DNA from: an uncultured Parabacteroides sp.
Lineage (GTDB): Bacteria > Bacteroidota > Bacteroidia > Bacteroidales > Tannerellaceae
Reading direction: 5' to 3'
NCBI GenBank assembly: GCA_900552415.1
Contig: USAD01000050.1
Span: forward strand, 1-12,694
Length of the DNA: 12,694 nucleotides
Part shown: positions 682 through 7,167 of the stretch, piece after piece
Layout: every line of letters starts with the position of its first letter
How positions within the stretch are numbered: position 1 is the stretch's first letter
The notes under the pieces: generated by a model
The model's database searches: none
What the model was told of the DNA's origin: nothing
What the model saw: only the letters and a program-made list of their open reading frames with translations
Program-made: the position numbers and the translations under genes

Positions 682-782
682 GGTTATTGTCGCGCTTTTT
701 GTCTTGGTTGAAGATGTTTCGGCAGGTTCTTTCCAGAGAAAAATAATTAATATATGACAATATGGCAGTATTTGAAATTGGC

Positions 783-799
783 ATTCCTTTTGTAGGAAT
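783..799 (+). repeat. Inverted repeat in the clpB leader/promoter region
   Basis: ATTCCT-TTTGT-AGGAAT is a perfect 6-bp dyad with a 5-nt centre, 50 nt before the clpB start. It is not the CIRCE heat-shock operator (TTAGCACTC-N9-GAGTGCTAA). It could be an operator or a small mRNA hairpin. It overlaps a TCCTTTTG (785-792) that is one mismatch from TAnnTTTG, but no convincing -33 element precedes that box. Confidence 0.35.
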
Positions 800-848: not shown

Positions 849-3437
849 ATGAATTTTAATAATTTTACAATTAAAGCGCAAGAGGCGGTGCAACAGGCTG
901 CGCAGATGGTTACACAGAATAACCAACAGGCGATCGAGCCAACGCACTTGTTGAAAGCGGTCATGTTGACGGGAGAGAGCGTGACCAATTTCATCTTCCA
1001 GAAGTTGGGTGTGAATATGCGAAATCTCGTCCAGGTATTGGATCGCGAGATCCAGTCGTATCCGAAAGTGTCGGGTGGTGAGCCTTATCTTTCGGGTGAT
1101 ACGAATAAGGTATTGCAAAAGGCAATCGACTACTCATCAAAGATGGGTGATCAATATGTCTCCCTGGAGCCGATTATCCTGGCTTTGTTCACGGAGAAGA
1201 GCACGGCGTCTCAAATGTTGAAGGATGCTGGCGTGACGGAGAAAGAGCTTCGTCTGGCTATTGAGGAGTTGCGTAAAGGCAACAAGGTAACCAGCCAGTC
1301 GGCCGAGGATACTTATGAGGCGTTGAGTAAATATGCGATCAACTTGAATGAGCGGGCTCGTAACGGAAAACTGGATCCGGTCATCGGCCGTGATGAGGAG
1401 ATTCGTCGGGTCTTGCAGATCTTGAGTCGTCGTACGAAGAATAACCCGATCCTGATCGGTGAGCCGGGTGTCGGTAAGACCGCGATCGCTGAGGGATTGG
1501 CGCACCGGATCGTGCGGGGCGATGTGCCTGAGAACTTGAAGACGAAACAGATCTTCTCGTTGGATATGGGCGCGTTGATCGCGGGAGCAAAATATAAAGG
1601 TGAGTTTGAGGAACGATTGAAGGCGGTCGTAAATGAGGTGATGAAGTCGGATGGCGAGATTATCTTGTTTATTGATGAGATCCATACCTTGGTCGGCGCC
1701 GGTAAGAGCGAGGGGGCTATGGATGCCGCCAATATCCTCAAGCCTGCTTTGGCTCGTGGTGAGTTGCGGGCGATTGGCGCGACGACTTTGGACGAGTACC
1801 AGAAATATTTCGAGAAGGATAAGGCGCTTGAGCGTCGGTTCCAGACGGTCATGGTGGATGAGCCGACCGAGGTGGATACGATCTCAATCTTGCGTGGTTT
1901 GAAGGAGAAGTATGAGAACCATCATAAGGTTCGGATCAAGGATGACGCGATCATCGCCGCCGTACAGCTCTCCAGCCGTTATATCACCGACCGGTTCTTG
2001 CCGGATAAGGCGATCGACTTGATGGATGAGGCCGCTGCCCGGTTGAGGATGCAGATGAACTCCGTGCCGGAATCGTTGGATGAGGTTTCACGCCGTATCA
2101 AGCAGTTGGAGATCGAGCGTGAGGCGATCAAGCGTGAGGATGACCAGCAGAAGTTGGATCAGCTGAATAAGGAGATCGCCGACTTGAAAGAGGAGGAGAC
2201 CAAACAGAAGGCACAGTGGGAGAGCGAGAAGGCTCAGATCAATAAGATCCAGCAGAACAAGATCGATATTGAGAACCTGAAGTTTGAGGCCGACCGTGCG
2301 GAGCGTGAGGGCGATTATGGAAAGGTCGCTGAGATCCGTTACGGTAAGATCAAGCAGAAGGAGGAGGAGATCAAGCAGACTCAGGAGAAACTGAAGACGA
2401 TGCAAGGCGCCTCGGCCATGATCAAGGAGGAGGTTGATAGCGATGATATCGCTGATGTGGTTTCTCGTTGGACGGGTATTCCTGTCAGCAAGATGATGCA
2501 GAGCGAGAAGGAGAAGCTGCTACATCTGGAGGAGGAGTTACACAAGCGTGTGATCGGCCAGGATGAGGCGATCCAGGCAATCGCGGACGCCGTACGTCGG
2601 AGCCGTGCCGGTTTGCAAGATCCGAAACGACCGATCGGCTCGTTTATCTTCCTCGGTACGACAGGTGTCGGTAAGACGGAGTTGGCCAAGGCGTTGGCTG
2701 ATTACCTGTTCGATGATGAGAATATGATGACCCGTATCGATATGAGTGAGTATCAGGAGAAGTTCAGCGCGACTCGTCTGATCGGTGCGCCTCCGGGATA
2801 TGTTGGTTACGATGAGGGTGGCCAGTTGACGGAGGCGATCCGCCGGAAACCTTATTCGGTGGTCTTGTTTGATGAGATTGAGAAGGCTCATCCGGACGTG
2901 TTCAATATCTTATTGCAAGTCTTGGATGATGGTCGTCTGACCGATAACAAGGGACGGACGGTGAACTTCAAGAATACCATCATTATCATGACCAGCAATA
3001 TGGGATCGTCGTTGATCCGTGAGAATTTCGAGAAGATGACTGACGCTAACCATGACGAGGTAGTCGAGAACACGAAACGCCAAGTCCTGGAGTTGCTGAA
3101 GAAGACGATCCGTCCGGAGTTCTTGAACCGTATTGACGATATCATCATGTTCACCCCGTTGAACGAGAAGGAGATTCGTGAGATTGTCGGCTTGCAGTTG
3201 AATGGCGTGAAGAAGATGCTGGCCCAGAATGGTGTTACGCTCGAGTTTACCGATGAGGCTCTCAACCTGATCGCCAATAAGGGCTATGATCCACAGTTTG
3301 GCGCACGTCCTGTTAAGCGGGTTATCCAGAGGATGGTGCTTAATGAGCTCTCGAAAGAGTTGCTGAGTGGTCATGTCAACCGTGAGCGTCCGATCGTGAT
3401 CGACCGTGTAGGCGATGGGTTGGTGTTCAAGAATTGA
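849..3437 (+). CDS. clpB: ATP-dependent disaggregase ClpB
   Basis: This 862-residue protein is a full-length ClpB/Hsp104 AAA+ disaggregase. With DnaK/DnaJ/GrpE it threads aggregated proteins through a cytoplasmic hexamer. In order it shows: a Clp N-domain (about 1-145); first AAA+ module with Walker A GEPGVGKT (204-211) and Walker B IILFIDE ending at D276-E277; the charged coiled-coil M-domain (about 399-519) that sets ClpB apart from ClpA/ClpC; second AAA+ module with Walker A GTTGVGKT (603-610) and Walker B VVLFDE (D675-E676); and sensor-2 GARPVKR starting at 818. No ClpP-docking loop is apparent, as expected for ClpB. The start is supported by AAGGAGA at 834-840, eight nt before the ATG. 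The gene is monocistronic, with a terminator 34 nt after its stop. No lesion is seen. Confidence 0.98.
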   Translation: MNFNNFTIKAQEAVQQAAQMVTQNNQQAIEPTHLLKAVMLTGESVTNFIFQKLGVNMRNLVQVLDREIQSYPKVSGGEPYLSGDTNKVLQKAIDYSSKMGDQYVSLEPIILALFTEKSTASQMLKDAGVTEKELRLAIEELRKGNKVTSQSAEDTYEALSKYAINLNERARNGKLDPVIGRDEEIRRVLQILSRRTKNNPILIGEPGVGKTAIAEGLAHRIVRGDVPENLKTKQIFSLDMGALIAGAKYKGEFEERLKAVVNEVMKSDGEIILFIDEIHTLVGAGKSEGAMDAANILKPALARGELRAIGATTLDEYQKYFEKDKALERRFQTVMVDEPTEVDTISILRGLKEKYENHHKVRIKDDAIIAAVQLSSRYITDRFLPDKAIDLMDEAAARLRMQMNSVPESLDEVSRRIKQLEIEREAIKREDDQQKLDQLNKEIADLKEEETKQKAQWESEKAQINKIQQNKIDIENLKFEADRAEREGDYGKVAEIRYGKIKQKEEEIKQTQEKLKTMQGASAMIKEEVDSDDIADVVSRWTGIPVSKMMQSEKEKLLHLEEELHKRVIGQDEAIQAIADAVRRSRAGLQDPKRPIGSFIFLGTTGVGKTELAKALADYLFDDENMMTRIDMSEYQEKFSATRLIGAPPGYVGYDEGGQLTEAIRRKPYSVVLFDEIEKAHPDVFNILLQVLDDGRLTDNKGRTVNFKNTIIIMTSNMGSSLIRENFEKMTDANHDEVVENTKRQVLELLKKTIRPEFLNRIDDIIMFTPLNEKEIREIVGLQLNGVKKMLAQNGVTLEFTDEALNLIANKGYDPQFGARPVKRVIQRMVLNELSKELLSGHVNRERPIVIDRVGDGLVFKN

Positions 3438-3511: not shown

Positions 3512-3823
3512 CTACATCTGGGCGATTGGTTTTACGATGTCGAATCTTAATCCGAGGGCGTCTATGATACGGAGGAATAGACCGGCGCCGGGTTCGACAA
3601 GCCCGTTTTCTATTTTTGAGATGTAAGACTTGTTTATCCCGACTCTTTGGGCAAGTTCCGATTGGGTCATTTTGGCCTCTTTTCTTGCGTCAAGAAGTAT
3701 TTGGCCCGTATAGAACGCATAGGCTTTCTCTTCTGCTTTCGTGCGTTCAAGAGTTCCCTCTTTCCCGAATTTTGCGTCTAAAACAGCATCGTAATCCACA
3801 ATCTGATGATTATTTGTCTCCAT
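3512..3823 (-). CDS. XRE-family antitoxin (HigA-like)
   Basis: This 103-residue protein has an XRE/Cro-type helix-turn-helix at about 52-74 (MTQSELAQRVGINKSYISK, then IENG), with a conserved LRIIDALG helix after it. The N-terminal 40 residues are charged and unrelated to the DNA-binding part; in HigA-type antitoxins such a segment contacts the toxin. It follows the toxin gene, with a 14-bp overlap of coding sequences, and has its own GGAGG (3830-3834) six nt before the ATG, lying inside the toxin reading frame. Toxin-first order is typical of higBA systems. The likely role is to neutralise the toxin and repress the operon; the dyad at 4155-4172 is a candidate operator. The gene stops just before the clpB terminator. 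Confidence 0.9.
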   Translation of the reverse strand: METNNHQIVDYDAVLDAKFGKEGTLERTKAEEKAYAFYTGQILLDARKEAKMTQSELAQRVGINKSYISKIENGLVEPGAGLFLRIIDALGLRFDIVKPIAQM

Positions 3824-4136
3824 AATATGCCTCCTTTATTTTTAATGCCTTTTCTATTTCCGAAGATGGTGTCCTTTGGGTCTTTTTTGGGAATCCATTG
3901 AACAGGACGATTATCTGGCCTTCGTCAAAAATAAAAAATACCCGGTAAATGTTTCCGTTATATTCGGTCCTCAGTTCATATAATCCATCCCTAATCAATT
4001 TTACGAATTTCTTAGGCAACCTGTCTTGCGTTTTCAAAAGAAGCAGGCCATATTGTATTTTTTCCTGCTCTTTCTCTTTCAGAGTGGCCATGAACGCCTC
4101 AAAATATCCTCCGTAGGTTCTTATCTTACGTTTCAT
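3810..4136 (-). CDS. HigB/Gp49-like toxin (RelE superfamily)
   Basis: Taken from the ATG at 4136, this is a 108-residue protein with the signature of the phage-derived Gp49-like/HigB family (PF05973): GLYELR (51-56), YRVFFIFDEG (64-73) and LFNGFPKKTQRTP (78-90). Members are usually ribosome-dependent mRNA interferases that cut translated mRNA; activity here is inferred. A longer frame begins at 4220, but its extra 28 residues are unlike the family and would place the start upstream of the promoter, so 4136 is preferred. The promoter -7 box ends only five nt before this ATG, so the mRNA may have almost no leader. The gene overlaps the antitoxin gene by 14 bp. Sampled 60-nt stretches are about 38-40% G+C, below the clpB and permease genes on either side, consistent with acquisition by transfer. 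Confidence 0.87.
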   Translation of the reverse strand: MKRKIRTYGGYFEAFMATLKEKEQEKIQYGLLLLKTQDRLPKKFVKLIRDGLYELRTEYNGNIYRVFFIFDEGQIIVLFNGFPKKTQRTPSSEIEKALKIKEAYYGDK

Positions 4137-4140
4137 ATCA

Positions 4141-4148
4141 CAAAGGTA
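4141..4148 (-). promoter_or_regulatory. -7 box of the toxin-antitoxin promoter
   Basis: On the minus strand TACCTTTG is an exact match to the Bacteroidota -7 consensus TAnnTTTG. Initiation about five nt downstream would fall at or next to the toxin ATG (4136). The -33 position (about 4169-4172) reads GTTT, a weak match to TTTG, which fits a promoter held by a regulator. Confidence 0.6.
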
Positions 4149-4154
4149 ATAATT

Positions 4155-4172
4155 GTTTCTATATATGGAAAC
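4155..4172 (-). promoter_or_regulatory. Candidate autoregulatory operator dyad
   Basis: GTTTCTATATATGGAAAC is an 18-bp palindrome with one mismatched pair (GTTTC and GAAAC arms around an AT core). It fills the space between the -33 and -7 elements of the toxin-antitoxin promoter. Binding there would block RNA polymerase, as expected for an XRE-type antitoxin acting as an autorepressor. The protein-site link is inferred from position. Confidence 0.55.
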
Positions 4173-4177
4173 TTTTG

Positions 4178-4196
4178 GACACAGAATCCCTGTGTC
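4178..4196. repeat. Perfect inverted repeat upstream of the toxin promoter
   Basis: GACACAG-AATCC-CTGTGTC is a perfect 7-bp dyad with a 5-nt spacer, 30-48 bp upstream of the toxin -7 box. With its flanks it presents TTGGACA (4175-4181) and TGTCAA (4193-4198), the same half-site words as in the dyads at 4418-4455 and 6979-7016. It could be a second operator for the toxin-antitoxin genes or a site for the exporter regulator. Confidence 0.5.
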
Positions 4197-4212
4197 AAGG
4201 TTTGATTGTTTT

Positions 4213-4313
4213 ATTACCATCTTTTGGTAATGAAATTTTCATCCTATGGTAATTGCGTTTTTTTCCTATGGTAATTGTATTTTCCTGCTTTGGTAATAGT
4301 ATTTTTCTCTATG
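4213..4313. repeat. Tandem repeat, four units of 22 bp, with an inverted partner
   Basis: TGGTAAT occurs at 4225, 4247, 4269 and 4291, spaced by exactly 22 bp each time, separated by T-rich spacers that also resemble each other (for example TTTTTTCCTAT and TTTCATCCTAT). One inverted copy, ATTACCA (4213-4219), faces the first unit and forms a 7-bp dyad with a 5-nt loop. A 22-bp spacing puts every site on nearly the same face of the helix, as in iteron-like or cooperative binding arrays. No function can be assigned. Confidence 0.75.
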
Positions 4314-4416: not shown

Positions 4417-4456
4417 GTGTCAAAAAATTGGACAGTAGTGTCAAATTTTTTGACAC
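4417..4456 (+). promoter_or_regulatory. Paired enhancer-like dyads upstream of the permease gene
   Basis: Two 17-bp dyads, TGTCAAAAAATTGGACA (4418-4434) and TGTCAAATTTTTTGACA (4439-4455), have centres 21 bp apart, two helical turns. Their centres lie at about -111 and -90 relative to the start predicted from the sigma-54-type element at 4511-4525. This is the usual position for upstream activating sites of NtrC-family activators. The same pair recurs at 6978-7017 with identical geometry. Confidence 0.75.
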
Positions 4457-4490
4457 TTTTAGGGATAGATTAAAATCGCAAAATGCTTAT

Positions 4491-4506
4491 AGATAAGCGT
4501 TTATCT
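4491..4506. repeat. Inverted repeat between the dyads and the -24 element
   Basis: AGATAA-GCGT-TTATCT is a perfect 6-bp dyad lying at about -46 to -31 of the permease promoter. It could bind a further regulator or modify DNA looping. No equivalent dyad is seen in the ATPase promoter, so it would be specific to the permease gene. Confidence 0.4.
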
Positions 4507-4510
4507 GTTA

Positions 4511-4525
4511 TGGCATGAATTTTGC
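4511..4525 (+). promoter_or_regulatory. Sigma-54 (-24/-12) promoter of the permease gene
   Basis: TGGCATGAATTTTGC fits the sigma-54 consensus TGGCACG-N4-TTGC(A/T), with one substitution in the -24 box. The invariant GG (4512-4513) and GC (4524-4525) are separated by exactly 10 nt. The predicted start is near 4537, leaving a leader of about 36 nt before the permease ATG. The element overlaps the TTG codon at 4522, which rules out that codon as the translation start. Confidence 0.75.
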
Positions 4526-4572
4526 TTTATTTTAAGGGAAAAGGAAGTCATAAACGAGATAAATGGGTTATT

Positions 4573-6969
4573 ATGAAAACGATGTTAACGAATTTCTTGT
4601 CGGTTGCCCGTGCTTATAAGGGGACTTTGGTGATGAACGTGGTGGGATTGGCGATGGCTTTCGCCGCCTTTCTGGTGATCATGATGAAGGTCAGTTATGA
4701 ACGGAACTTCGACCGGTGCCACCCGAAAGCGGAACGGATCTATCGGGTCGGTATCGAGACGAAAGAGAGCTTGTCGGGCGACGTGATCTTGCCGCGGGCC
4801 TTGGTGGACGCGATTATTGCCTCCTCGCCCTATATTGAGGCCGGGACGTTGATTAATCCTTTTGTGGGCGAACGTTATATTTCGGTGGAGCGGGAAGGGG
4901 TTCCAACCGGTTTTCGGGAAAGTTTTATCGCTTGCTATCCAGATATTACTCAAATCTTTGGCTTCCGGATGGTAGAGGGCGACGCTGGGTGCTTGCGGAC
5001 CAATGGCTCGGTCCTGATTCCGGAGAGTATGGCCCGGCGCCTGTTTGGGGATGGTCCGGCGGTGGGGCGGCGGATCGACCTGAAGGAGACGCTCTGGATG
5101 AACGAGAAGCTCAGTTTTATCACGGTGGGTGGTGTTTATGCCGATTTCCCGGGGAATACCCAGTTGGAGAACGCCATTTATTTAACGCCACAGCCGGGCG
5201 ATGCCTCGGAGGGGCAATGGGATGCCTCCAATTATCTCTGTTATCTCTTGTTGGCGCCTGGAGTCTCGCCCGAGGCAGTGATCGCCAACTTTAACCAGCA
5301 CTTTGATTTCTCAAACTTATCATATATCCCGGCTGATAGTAAGCCGAGTTTGACGTTGTGTCCTTTGACGGATATCTTCTCGTTAGGGATGACGGAGCGG
5401 TTTATCTCGAAGGGTGGCAATATGGAGACGACCCGACTCCTGTCGTTGGTGGCTCTGTTCACGATCCTGATCGCAGGAGTCAATTTCATGAATTTCGCTG
5501 TCTCGCTGGGCCCGTTGCGGATGCGGAGTATCAATACGCAGAAGATTCTGGGTTGCCCGGTGAGTCGCTTGCGCTGGTCTTTGTTGCTCGAGATGGTCGG
5601 GCTCTCGTTGGTCGCTTATCTGTTGTCGTTGTTGGTCGTGGCGCAATTGAACAGGTTGGCGTTCCTGACCTTCCTTAATGTGGATACGACCTTGTCGGGG
5701 CATTTGGGCCTCTTGTTTGTGGTGGGAGGCGTGGCCTTGTCGCTTGGCCTGTTGGCCGGGCTTTATCCGGCCTTTTATGTGACCTCCTTCCAGCCGGCAC
5801 TGGTGCTCAAGGGGTCGTTTGGCCTGTCGCCGACCGGGCGCCGACTGCGTGTGGGCTTGGTCTTTTTCCAGTTCCTGGTTTCGATTATTCTGATCATCTC
5901 TGCTATAGGCATGGCCTTGCAGGATCGTTATATGCGTCATTTCCCTTTGGGATTCGATCGGGATCAGGTCTTGGTGGTCGAGCTGGACAATAAGTTCTTG
6001 GACAAGTCGAGAGAGGCTTATGTGGAACGGTTAAAGCGCTTTCCGGGGATTGAGGATGTCGCCTTCTCGCATCAGAAACTGGGCGCGAGAGATCAATATA
6101 TGTATTGGGGACTGGAGTATAAAAACGAGCGGAATACGTTTCAGATCCTTTCGGTCAGCTGGAATTTCTTGAGCGTGATGGGCATCCAGTTGATCGATGG
6201 GCAGATGCCGACCGAGAGTATGGAACGTTCGGAAAATCTCTACTTTTATGCTTATGAGTCGATTTACAAGCGGTTGGGATTGTCGATTGGTGATCGTCTG
6301 GCGATGCCGGGCGCTTCCGATGATTCTACTCCCATGACGGTAGTCGGAGTGGTACGAGGTCCTCAATTCTCATCCATGCGCCAACGGATGACCGATGCCT
6401 TGTTTGCCATTAATTATAACGCGAACCATCTGCCTTGTACTTATATCCGGGTCAAGGCGGGGAGCGACTTTGGGGCGGTTGTTGAGCATATCCGTAAGGT
6501 GGTTCATGAGATCGACCCAACCTATCCGGTTGACGTGGAGTTCTACGATACGATCCTCAATAATTTCTATCAGGAAGAGAATCGGGTGACCCGGATGGTC
6601 TATTCCTTCTCGTTCCTGGCGATCATCATCTCGTTGATGGGGGTCTTTAGCTTGGTCTTGTTCGAGACGCAATACCGCCGGAAAGAGATCGGTATCCGTC
6701 GGGTGATGGGTGCTTCGGTAGGCGAGATCCTGATGTTGTTTGGGCGGCGTTATACTTGGATTGTTATACTGAGCGCGTTTCTGGCGGTTCCGCTGGCTTG
6801 CTGGGTGGTCTGGTCGTGGCTGAATCACTTCGCTTACAAGATCGATATGCCGATCTGGGCGTTCCTCTTGGCGGTCGTGGCGGTTTGGTTGGTGACGTTG
6901 TCGGTTGTTTGGACCCGCTGCTGGCATACGGCCAATGAGAACCCGGTAGAGAGCATCCGGAAGGAATGA
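4573..6969 (+). CDS. FtsX/MacB-like ABC transporter permease
   Basis: This 798-residue inner-membrane protein has the Bacteroidota duplicated MacB_PCD-FtsX layout. An N-terminal membrane helix (about 17-41) is followed by a periplasmic domain, then three helices (about 286-312, 331-363, 377-402). A further helix (about 425-450) opens a second periplasmic domain, and three final helices follow (about 675-700, 727-752, 762-783). The coupling-helix-like segment RRKEIGIRRVMGAS (702-715) after the sixth helix is typical of FtsX permeases. Such proteins work by mechanotransmission, passing ATP-driven movement to the periplasm, and export peptides, lipids or drugs; the substrate is unknown here. The frame is open upstream to a TTG at 4522, but that codon overlaps the promoter and ATG 4573 gives the family-like MKTMLTNFLSVAR start. 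The partner ATPase is the next gene, under a matching promoter. Confidence 0.93.
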   Translation: MKTMLTNFLSVARAYKGTLVMNVVGLAMAFAAFLVIMMKVSYERNFDRCHPKAERIYRVGIETKESLSGDVILPRALVDAIIASSPYIEAGTLINPFVGERYISVEREGVPTGFRESFIACYPDITQIFGFRMVEGDAGCLRTNGSVLIPESMARRLFGDGPAVGRRIDLKETLWMNEKLSFITVGGVYADFPGNTQLENAIYLTPQPGDASEGQWDASNYLCYLLLAPGVSPEAVIANFNQHFDFSNLSYIPADSKPSLTLCPLTDIFSLGMTERFISKGGNMETTRLLSLVALFTILIAGVNFMNFAVSLGPLRMRSINTQKILGCPVSRLRWSLLLEMVGLSLVAYLLSLLVVAQLNRLAFLTFLNVDTTLSGHLGLLFVVGGVALSLGLLAGLYPAFYVTSFQPALVLKGSFGLSPTGRRLRVGLVFFQFLVSIILIISAIGMALQDRYMRHFPLGFDRDQVLVVELDNKFLDKSREAYVERLKRFPGIEDVAFSHQKLGARDQYMYWGLEYKNERNTFQILSVSWNFLSVMGIQLIDGQMPTESMERSENLYFYAYESIYKRLGLSIGDRLAMPGASDDSTPMTVVGVVRGPQFSSMRQRMTDALFAINYNANHLPCTYIRVKAGSDFGAVVEHIRKVVHEIDPTYPVDVEFYDTILNNFYQEENRVTRMVYSFSFLAIIISLMGVFSLVLFETQYRRKEIGIRRVMGASVGEILMLFGRRYTWIVILSAFLAVPLACWVVWSWLNHFAYKIDMPIWAFLLAVVAVWLVTLSVVWTRCWHTANENPVESIRKE

Positions 6970-6977
6970 GCCCTCAG

Positions 6978-7017
6978 GTGTCAAAAAATTGGACACTACT
7001 GTCTAATTTTTTGACAC
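6978..7017 (+). promoter_or_regulatory. Paired enhancer-like dyads upstream of the ATPase gene
   Basis: TGTCAAAAAATTGGACA (6979-6995) and TGTCTAATTTTTTGACA (7000-7016) have centres 21 bp apart. The 40-bp block differs from the one at 4417-4456 at only three positions. As RNA it could fold into an 18-bp stem with loop CTAC just after the permease stop, so it may also weaken read-through. The exact repetition of its distance to a -24/-12 element argues that its main role is as a DNA-binding site. Confidence 0.75.
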
Positions 7018-7033
7018 TCCGAAATCTTTAGTG

Positions 7034-7046
7034 AATCGATAAATTG
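7034..7046 (+). promoter_or_regulatory. Possible IHF-like bend site
   Basis: AATCGATAAATTG matches the IHF consensus WATCAANNNNTTR at all but one constrained position and lies between the dyads and the -24 element, where IHF commonly bends DNA in sigma-54 promoters. At nearly the same offset the permease promoter has AATCGCAAAATGC (4474-4486), a weaker match sharing AATCG. This is a tentative call. Confidence 0.3.
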
Positions 7047-7071
7047 TTGCTGTATAATGTATTGCCTGTTT

Positions 7072-7086
7072 TGGCACGGGATTTGT
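7072..7086 (+). promoter_or_regulatory. Sigma-54-type (-24/-12) promoter of the ATPase gene
   Basis: TGGCACGGGATTTGT has a perfect -24 box (TGGCACG) and a -12 box with T in place of the C of the GC pair. GG (7073-7074) and GT (7085-7086) are spaced by 10 nt. The imperfect -12 lowers confidence in this element alone. However, its distance from the upstream dyads (65 bp from the second dyad centre to the GG) equals that in the permease promoter. Predicted start is near 7098, leaving a leader of about 70 nt. Confidence 0.6.
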
Positions 7087-7167
7087 ATACTTTTTGTCAA
7101 GAAAAGCCCATGTTGAGGCGACACGATAAGGAAGAATTGGAATATTAACATTATAAAATGGAAAGTC

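Follow-up and report, generated by a model that had tools for sequence, protein, structure and literature searches.

Paired dyads at a near-fixed distance from predicted sigma-54 promoters of exporter genes in Parabacteroides and related genomes

Described enhancer-dependent promoters and exporters

Sigma-54 promoters of the NtrC/NorR type, such as norVW and the NtrC-type enhancer-dependent promoter glnAp2, are the closest described counterparts of two control regions located ahead of the permease and ATPase genes of a predicted ATP-binding cassette (ABC) exporter in an uncultured Parabacteroides sp. (assembly GCA_900552415.1, contig USAD01000050.1; the whole 12,694-nucleotide stretch analyzed is referred to as the window). 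The two types have in common a -24/-12 box, multiple upstream sites and an AAA+ activator, the last being predicted here. The regions considered here differ in the dyad sequence, in the targets, in the activator loop, which is mostly of the GAFTDA type instead of GAFTGA, and in a near-rigid placement that is repeated ahead of many dispersed genes. The exporter can be compared with those of the MacAB-TolC type, with which it shares a permease containing the MacB_PCD and FtsX domains, an ATPase and, in relatives, a HlyD-type adaptor and TolC; here, however, the ATPase is a separate polypeptide and the parts are scattered over separate sigma-54 units.

The NorR oligomer is reported to need three enhancer sites as a scaffold (PMC2941729). 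For CbrB, a sigma-54 activator of Pseudomonas putida, the subsites are reported to lie on the same face of the helix at distances of 20-25 bp, and the authors suggest that spacing may outweigh sequence (PMC6296734); these subsites are described as non-palindromic and variably spaced, in contrast to the palindromic dyads, near-fixed spacing and fixed promoter distance found here. Predicted sigma-54 promoters are reported to be enriched in Bacteroidia before ABC antimicrobial-peptide permeases of COG0577 (PMC12316311); the parts of that account considered here do not describe enhancer dyads, their spacing or a cognate activator. The mechanism proposed below belongs to the established NtrC class. 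What looks new is the regulon, together with its near-rigid geometry and the GAFTDA-type loop of a native activator; in the literature searched, no description was found of the regulon, the activator or the fixed geometry.

Two control regions and their counterparts in other genomes

Each of the two regions very probably combines a sigma-54 promoter with a two-site enhancer of its own, both regions being served by one NtrC-type activator, as judged from sequence comparison. All four 17-bp dyads (Table 1) are exact matches to TGTCNAANNNTTNGACA, and the centres of each pair are 21 bp apart, as the preliminary description had it; its distances of 94 bp from the first dyad base to the GG and of 65 bp from the second dyad centre to the GG were likewise measured in both regions (positions such as -86 and -65 are counted from the first G of the -24 GG). 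The box spacing given there, TGGCA-N8-TTG, is incorrect, the actual reading being TGGCA-N6-TTG. Against the consensus TGGCAC-N5-TTGCA, the two boxes score 9 and 10 of 11 bases, and the dyad centres lie at about -111 and -90 from the predicted starts, within the interval of -80 to -150 associated with NtrC-family activators. Each 38-bp unit is near-palindromic because the second dyad approximates the reverse complement of the first. No TGTCNAANNNTTNGACA dyads beyond these four are present in the window at up to 2 mismatches, a threshold at which shuffling yields 0.62 dyads on average and reaches four in only 1 of 200 shuffles. An order-1 Markov simulation with the local intergenic composition gives 0.001 exact dyads per 12.7 kb and zero pairs at 21 bp in 1000 runs.

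The search for counterparts used the 21-bp dyad pair alone, leaving the sigma-54 box free within 150 bp. In agreement with the expectation that related genomes would conserve both dyads and spacing, this yielded 27 further regions, of which 21 are from six of the 393 genomes scanned in the order, four from P. distasonis and one each from P. massiliensis and P. oris. Together with the two regions of the window, the best sigma-54 box falls into register in 29 of 29, namely at -86/-65 in 25 regions, at -87/-66 in three and at -85/-64 in one. The 27 regions from the order genomes, P. distasonis and the window itself are all at -86/-65 (25) or -87/-66 (2), and the same search pattern places the remaining two at -87/-66 (L003) and -85/-64 (L006). 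The palindromic pair was oriented by the side with the better box (scores of 8-11, compared with 5-9 on the opposite side). The count of 29 leaves out the overlapping third dyad of L007, the cases spaced at 22-23 bp (L001, L002, L015 and L018) and the viral contig L004. Loci L001 and L002 lie in genomes G001 and G002, respectively, and L004 comes from the viral record G003.

The order scan (21 bp, up to 1 mismatch) detected 16 sites in six genomes, and the reversed-pattern control at the same threshold gave 0 matches in all 393. At up to 3 mismatches, 19 sites were found in four of six chosen genomes (nine in G108, four each in G208 and G292, two in G355); the other two, G062 and G356, have no site at this threshold, and the control again gave 0 matches. 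G014 and G124, searched at 1 mismatch only, contribute one site each, bringing the total for the order to 21. Some of the genomes that lack the strict site contain drifted or 22-23 bp versions, and in others none was found. Weaker dyads 23 bp apart are present at -87/-64 in a paralogue locus of P. massiliensis (L015) and at -86/-63 in Persicobacter (L018), with a box scoring 8 of 11. In viral contigs, the only record from the dyad-pair scan (L004) contains CAAATTTTTTGACA-type repeats with no sigma-54 box in register and was rejected; a permease scan of these contigs gave no match. Also rejected were the boxes of P. distasonis L022, which are accompanied by inverted repeats of a different motif, and of L016, where the box is 10 kb from a regulator with the sequence TRYALYRK and the repeats are GTGCGCTATCGC-like, both outside the -86/-65 geometry. 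It is extremely unlikely that both window genes are read mainly from an upstream housekeeping promoter and that their sigma-54 elements are vestigial: only about 200 bp separate the permease stop from the ATPase start, so that read-through is possible, but the combination of dyads, spacing and box is found again in other genomes much more often than in the controls.

The genes behind the 21 order-genome sites, typed by Pfam in some cases and by tblastn to window or P. distasonis proteins in others, encode ten FtsX-type permeases (the one in L044 looks broken), six TolC-type proteins, three ATPases (one call being a 26-residue fragment at a contig edge), one DUF3836 protein and one PF00144 hydrolase. 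In 16 records of P. distasonis (about 2.8 Mb, part of the whole set; filed as plasmids, they look chromosomal), there are four control regions, every one at -86/-65, which precede an ATPase that is 90.7% identical to that of the window, an ATPase remnant ahead of a permease, TolC, and another permease. The ATPase region (L007) additionally has an overlapping third, weaker dyad at -107 with 3 mismatches. A control region at -87/-66 precedes a DUF3836 gene in P. oris. The wider regulon anticipated in the preliminary description thus extends to TolC, further permeases, an ATPase, DUF3836 and a hydrolase, and the site pattern unites genes for TolC, permeases and ATPases from scattered positions in a single pump regulon. 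The DUF3836 family, which is not named in the literature searched, gains a functional context. DUF3836 proteins are encoded behind this same type of enhancer and sigma-54 box in two genomes (Table 1); a second DUF3836 gene of G108 lacks these elements, and no DUF3836 match was obtained in five further genomes with sites.

The two copies in the window are not fully independent and some relatedness is kept. Their dyad pairs are identical at 35 of 38 positions, and their 55-bp spacers at 26 of 55 compared with 15.8 by shuffling (p 0.0026); the leaders are weakly similar (p 0.024). Hence the earlier proposition that spacing had been kept while sequence drifted holds only in part within the window, where the spacers retain similarity; the argument from geometry rests on the cross-species comparison. 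Alternatively, the spacing could be the same owing to a recent duplication of a promoter cassette along with the ATPase gene, and not to selection on geometry. Besides the residual similarity, such copying is apparent in the permease array of P. distasonis, where a copy of the control region is directly followed by an ATPase remnant (Table 1), suggesting that promoter-ATPase cassettes get duplicated and then decay. Nevertheless, this explanation is unlikely given that the same geometry is found before TolC, DUF3836 and distant permeases in several genomes, that Persicobacter nearly preserves it with a weaker box, and that the different dyads of another regulator nearly keep it as well. Duplication may account for the window pair but not for the conservation.

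Table 1. Coordinates of the features of the window and of selected features in other records (the latter with locus names)
Feature	Sequence or size	Position	Strand	Remarks
Distal dyad, permease control region	TGTCAAAAAATTGGACA	4418..4434	+	centre at -86 from GG of -24 box
Proximal dyad, permease control region	TGTCAAATTTTTTGACA	4439..4455	+	centre at -65
Sigma-54 -24/-12 box, permease	TGGCATGAATTTTGCT	4511..4526	+	TGGCAT-N5-TTGCT; predicted start near 4537
FtsX/MacB-type ABC permease	798 aa from likely ATG	4573..6969	+	Pfam
Distal dyad, ATPase control region	TGTCAAAAAATTGGACA	6979..6995	+	centre at -86
Proximal dyad, ATPase control region	TGTCTAATTTTTTGACA	7000..7016	+	centre at -65
Sigma-54 -24/-12 box, ATPase	TGGCACGGGATTTGTA	7072..7087	+	TGGCAC-N5-TTGTA; predicted start near 7098
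ABC ATPase	226 aa	7168..7848	+	Pfam ABC_tran 1.4e-36
Sigma-54-like box ahead of clpB	TGGCATTCCTTTTGTA	779-794		starts 70 bp ahead of clpB
ClpB		849-3437		Pfam
HTH_3 protein and Gp49-like protein		3512-4220	minus	Pfam; beside permease control region
ATPase remnant		L007 14467-14583		directly after control-region copy
DUF3836 protein		L003 850-1323		behind enhancer and sigma-54 box
DUF3836 protein		L039 1655-2059		behind enhancer and sigma-54 box

Regulators and the proposed mechanism

Homologous sites in relatives are close to genes for an NtrC-type regulator and a histidine kinase, as had been expected of other sites of this kind. In a Bacteroidaceae metagenome-assembled genome (L001) and in Phocaeicola oris (L002), a regulator with receiver, AAA+ and Fis-type helix-turn-helix domains and a HATPase kinase are encoded on the strand opposite to an array of TolC, adaptor (HlyD-type membrane fusion protein) and FtsX permease genes, with dyads 22 bp apart at -86/-64 and a sigma-54 box ahead of TolC; in L002, a DUF5916 gene separates the regulator from the site. 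Regulator, kinase, TolC, adaptor and the L001 ATPase were typed by Pfam, and one permease in each locus by tblastn. In P. massiliensis (L006), the -85/-64 site separates the regulator from a long frame that is divergently oriented. The P. distasonis regulator (gene 20001-21350; protein WP_009276067.1 in TSDC17.2-1.1) and kinase were located in L005, and rpoN is annotated in the P. distasonis record OY725749. In all six site-bearing genomes of the order, a site shares a contig with an NtrC-type regulator, the distance to the regulator match being about 200 bp or less in G292, G208, G355 and G124, about 2 kb in G108 and about 3.3 kb in G014. The comparison thus supports the earlier inference that one enhancer-binding protein would serve both exporter subunits. 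Drifted dyads, e.g., TGTAAAA..TTTTACA, accompany less similar regulators.

Binding of the NtrC-type regulator to the dyads is a prediction, and operators are commonly short palindromes such as these. The dyads could be operators for a repressor or activator of an unrelated type (e.g., TetR or GntR) and be near sigma-54 boxes by chance, with another enhancer protein acting on the promoters. This is highly improbable considering that in all 29 regions the dyad pair predicts the position of the box to within 1 bp, that NtrC-type regulators are encoded near sites in relatives, and that a paralogous regulator is associated with different dyads at nearly the same positions.

Under the favored reading of a sigma-54 promoter with a two-site enhancer, a single NtrC-type activator (receiver, AAA+, Fis-type helix-turn-helix), once phosphorylated, would occupy the two dyads as two dimers. 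Its partner would be the kinase encoded beside the activator gene in relatives, and the window's organism presumably carries such an activator gene. With the dyads two helical turns apart, both dimers would face the same side of the double helix, form the AAA+ ring and contact the sigma-54 polymerase over a short, phase-fixed loop of about 65-86 bp, far shorter than the DNA persistence length of about 150 bp. A single signal, probably envelope or antimicrobial stress, would then switch on the permease and the ATPase together with TolC and further exporter parts encoded at other places in the genome, even though all of these form separate transcription units.

Against this reading, 387 of the 393 genomes lack the strict site (21 bp, up to 1 mismatch); these include 94 of the 100 in which the P. 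distasonis regulator has a match at E<=1e-140. In its favor, the four best regulator matches, in G292, G108, G208 and G355 (85, 85, 78 and 74% identity), come from the four genomes with at least two sites, but this ranking is confounded by relatedness to P. distasonis, from which the query was taken. Also against it, the annotation shows no FtsX gene within 20 kb of the regulator in P. distasonis, and the FtsX genes of this species in L009, L010 and L022 lack the dyad pair. Further evidence in its favor comes from a scan of 52 regulator loci that used no motif: of the 23 sigma-54 boxes in intergenic DNA, 14 have their best repeat pair at a lag of 21-23 and a centre at -83 to -87, compared with 13 of 920 shuffles. 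These limits were, however, set with the pattern already known, six of the 14 cases are loci with known sites (L061, L063, L091, L097, L001 and L006), the case in L019 appears to be out of register, and the scan did not recover the known sites in L060 and L062. Seven cases are fresh (L065, L068, L072, two in L083, L087 and L089). The GAFTGA loop expected of NtrC-type activators is largely replaced. Among the 52 regulators, which were collected mostly by similarity to one query and hence are not independent, 47 have GAFTDA (33), GSFTDA (11) or GAYTDA (3), only one has GAFTGA, three have other residues, and in one the loop was not located. The NorR variant G266D, with the change at the same loop position, is reported to be active without the signal and to keep oligomerization and open-complex formation (PMC2941729), so that a GAFTDA-type loop may be functional.

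Regulators adjoining TGTC dyads contain (S/T)RQTLYNK or SRQTLYSK close to the C-terminus. In contrast to this RQTLYNK type, a paralogous regulator of P. distasonis (L011) has TRFSLYRK in the helix-turn-helix, and the promoter of the neighboring permease has the dyads GTGCATTATCGCAC and GTACGCTATCGCAC, 21 bp apart at about -84.5/-63.5. Pairing of the recognition sequence in the regulator with the dyad sequence is thus suggested by a single case, a lead rather than proof, and this arrangement (L011 6699), a paralogue accompanied by dyads of its own whose spacing is almost unchanged, may be a sign of several insulated exporter regulons. A broader scheme, which we consider possible and put forward tentatively, is that Bacteroidota might use position-locked sigma-54 enhancers, with phase-fixed dimers at -86/-65 and GAFTDA-type activators, in which the dyad sequence would select the activator and paralogues would share the geometry, so that a cell could contain several insulated exporter regulons reaching DUF3836 proteins. 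Bacteroidota encode many FtsX permeases and NtrC-type regulators without assigned partners, and the strict site pattern lets sequence alone assign them. The system is also a natural test of exact helical phasing in short-range bacterial enhancers and of a G-to-D change in the sigma-54 contact loop of a native activator.

A regulator-kinase pair also neighbors ATPase and permease genes in Hymenobacter (L019), Spirosoma (L023) and Rahnella (L021), and permease and ATPase matches are present near the regulator in Pseudoalteromonas (L020). Judging by the neighbors in Rahnella and Pseudoalteromonas, the regulator-exporter association reaches into Gammaproteobacteria. The upstream regions in Rahnella and Hymenobacter contain sigma-54 boxes, lack clear in-register dyads and were not accepted as sites; no such box is listed for Pseudoalteromonas and Spirosoma.

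Other genes of the window

A Pfam scan of ten open reading frames of the window identified clear genes for a YaaA-family protein, ClpB, the FtsX/MacB permease, the ABC ATPase, a sodium/glutamate symporter, and SusD-like and TonB-receptor proteins. The MacB_PCD (6.2e-22) and FtsX (4.3e-20) domains of the permease, scored on the longer frame 4522-6969, and the ABC ATPase are encoded, as expected of a MacB/FtsX ABC exporter, and the distal dyad of the ATPase region begins 10 bp past the permease stop. No periplasmic adaptor or TolC was found among these ten frames; in relatives, both are adjacent or co-controlled. The closest relative of the permease is a cluster at 97% identity, the second-best being at 52%; the named relatives belong to Parabacteroides, Tannerellaceae, Dysgonomonas and other Bacteroidales, and the majority of the listed proteins are nameless.

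A sigma-54-like box is also present ahead of clpB (Table 1). It was rejected as a site of the type described above, as TGTC dyads are absent; a different dyad, GACAATGGTTATTGTC, is located farther upstream. Proteases of COG0542 are reported as enriched in Bacteroidia in the same account of predicted sigma-54 promoters (PMC12316311). Next to the permease control region, the HTH_3 protein and the Gp49-like protein are encoded on the minus strand, and this gene pair resembles toxin-antitoxin pairs of the HigB/HigA type.

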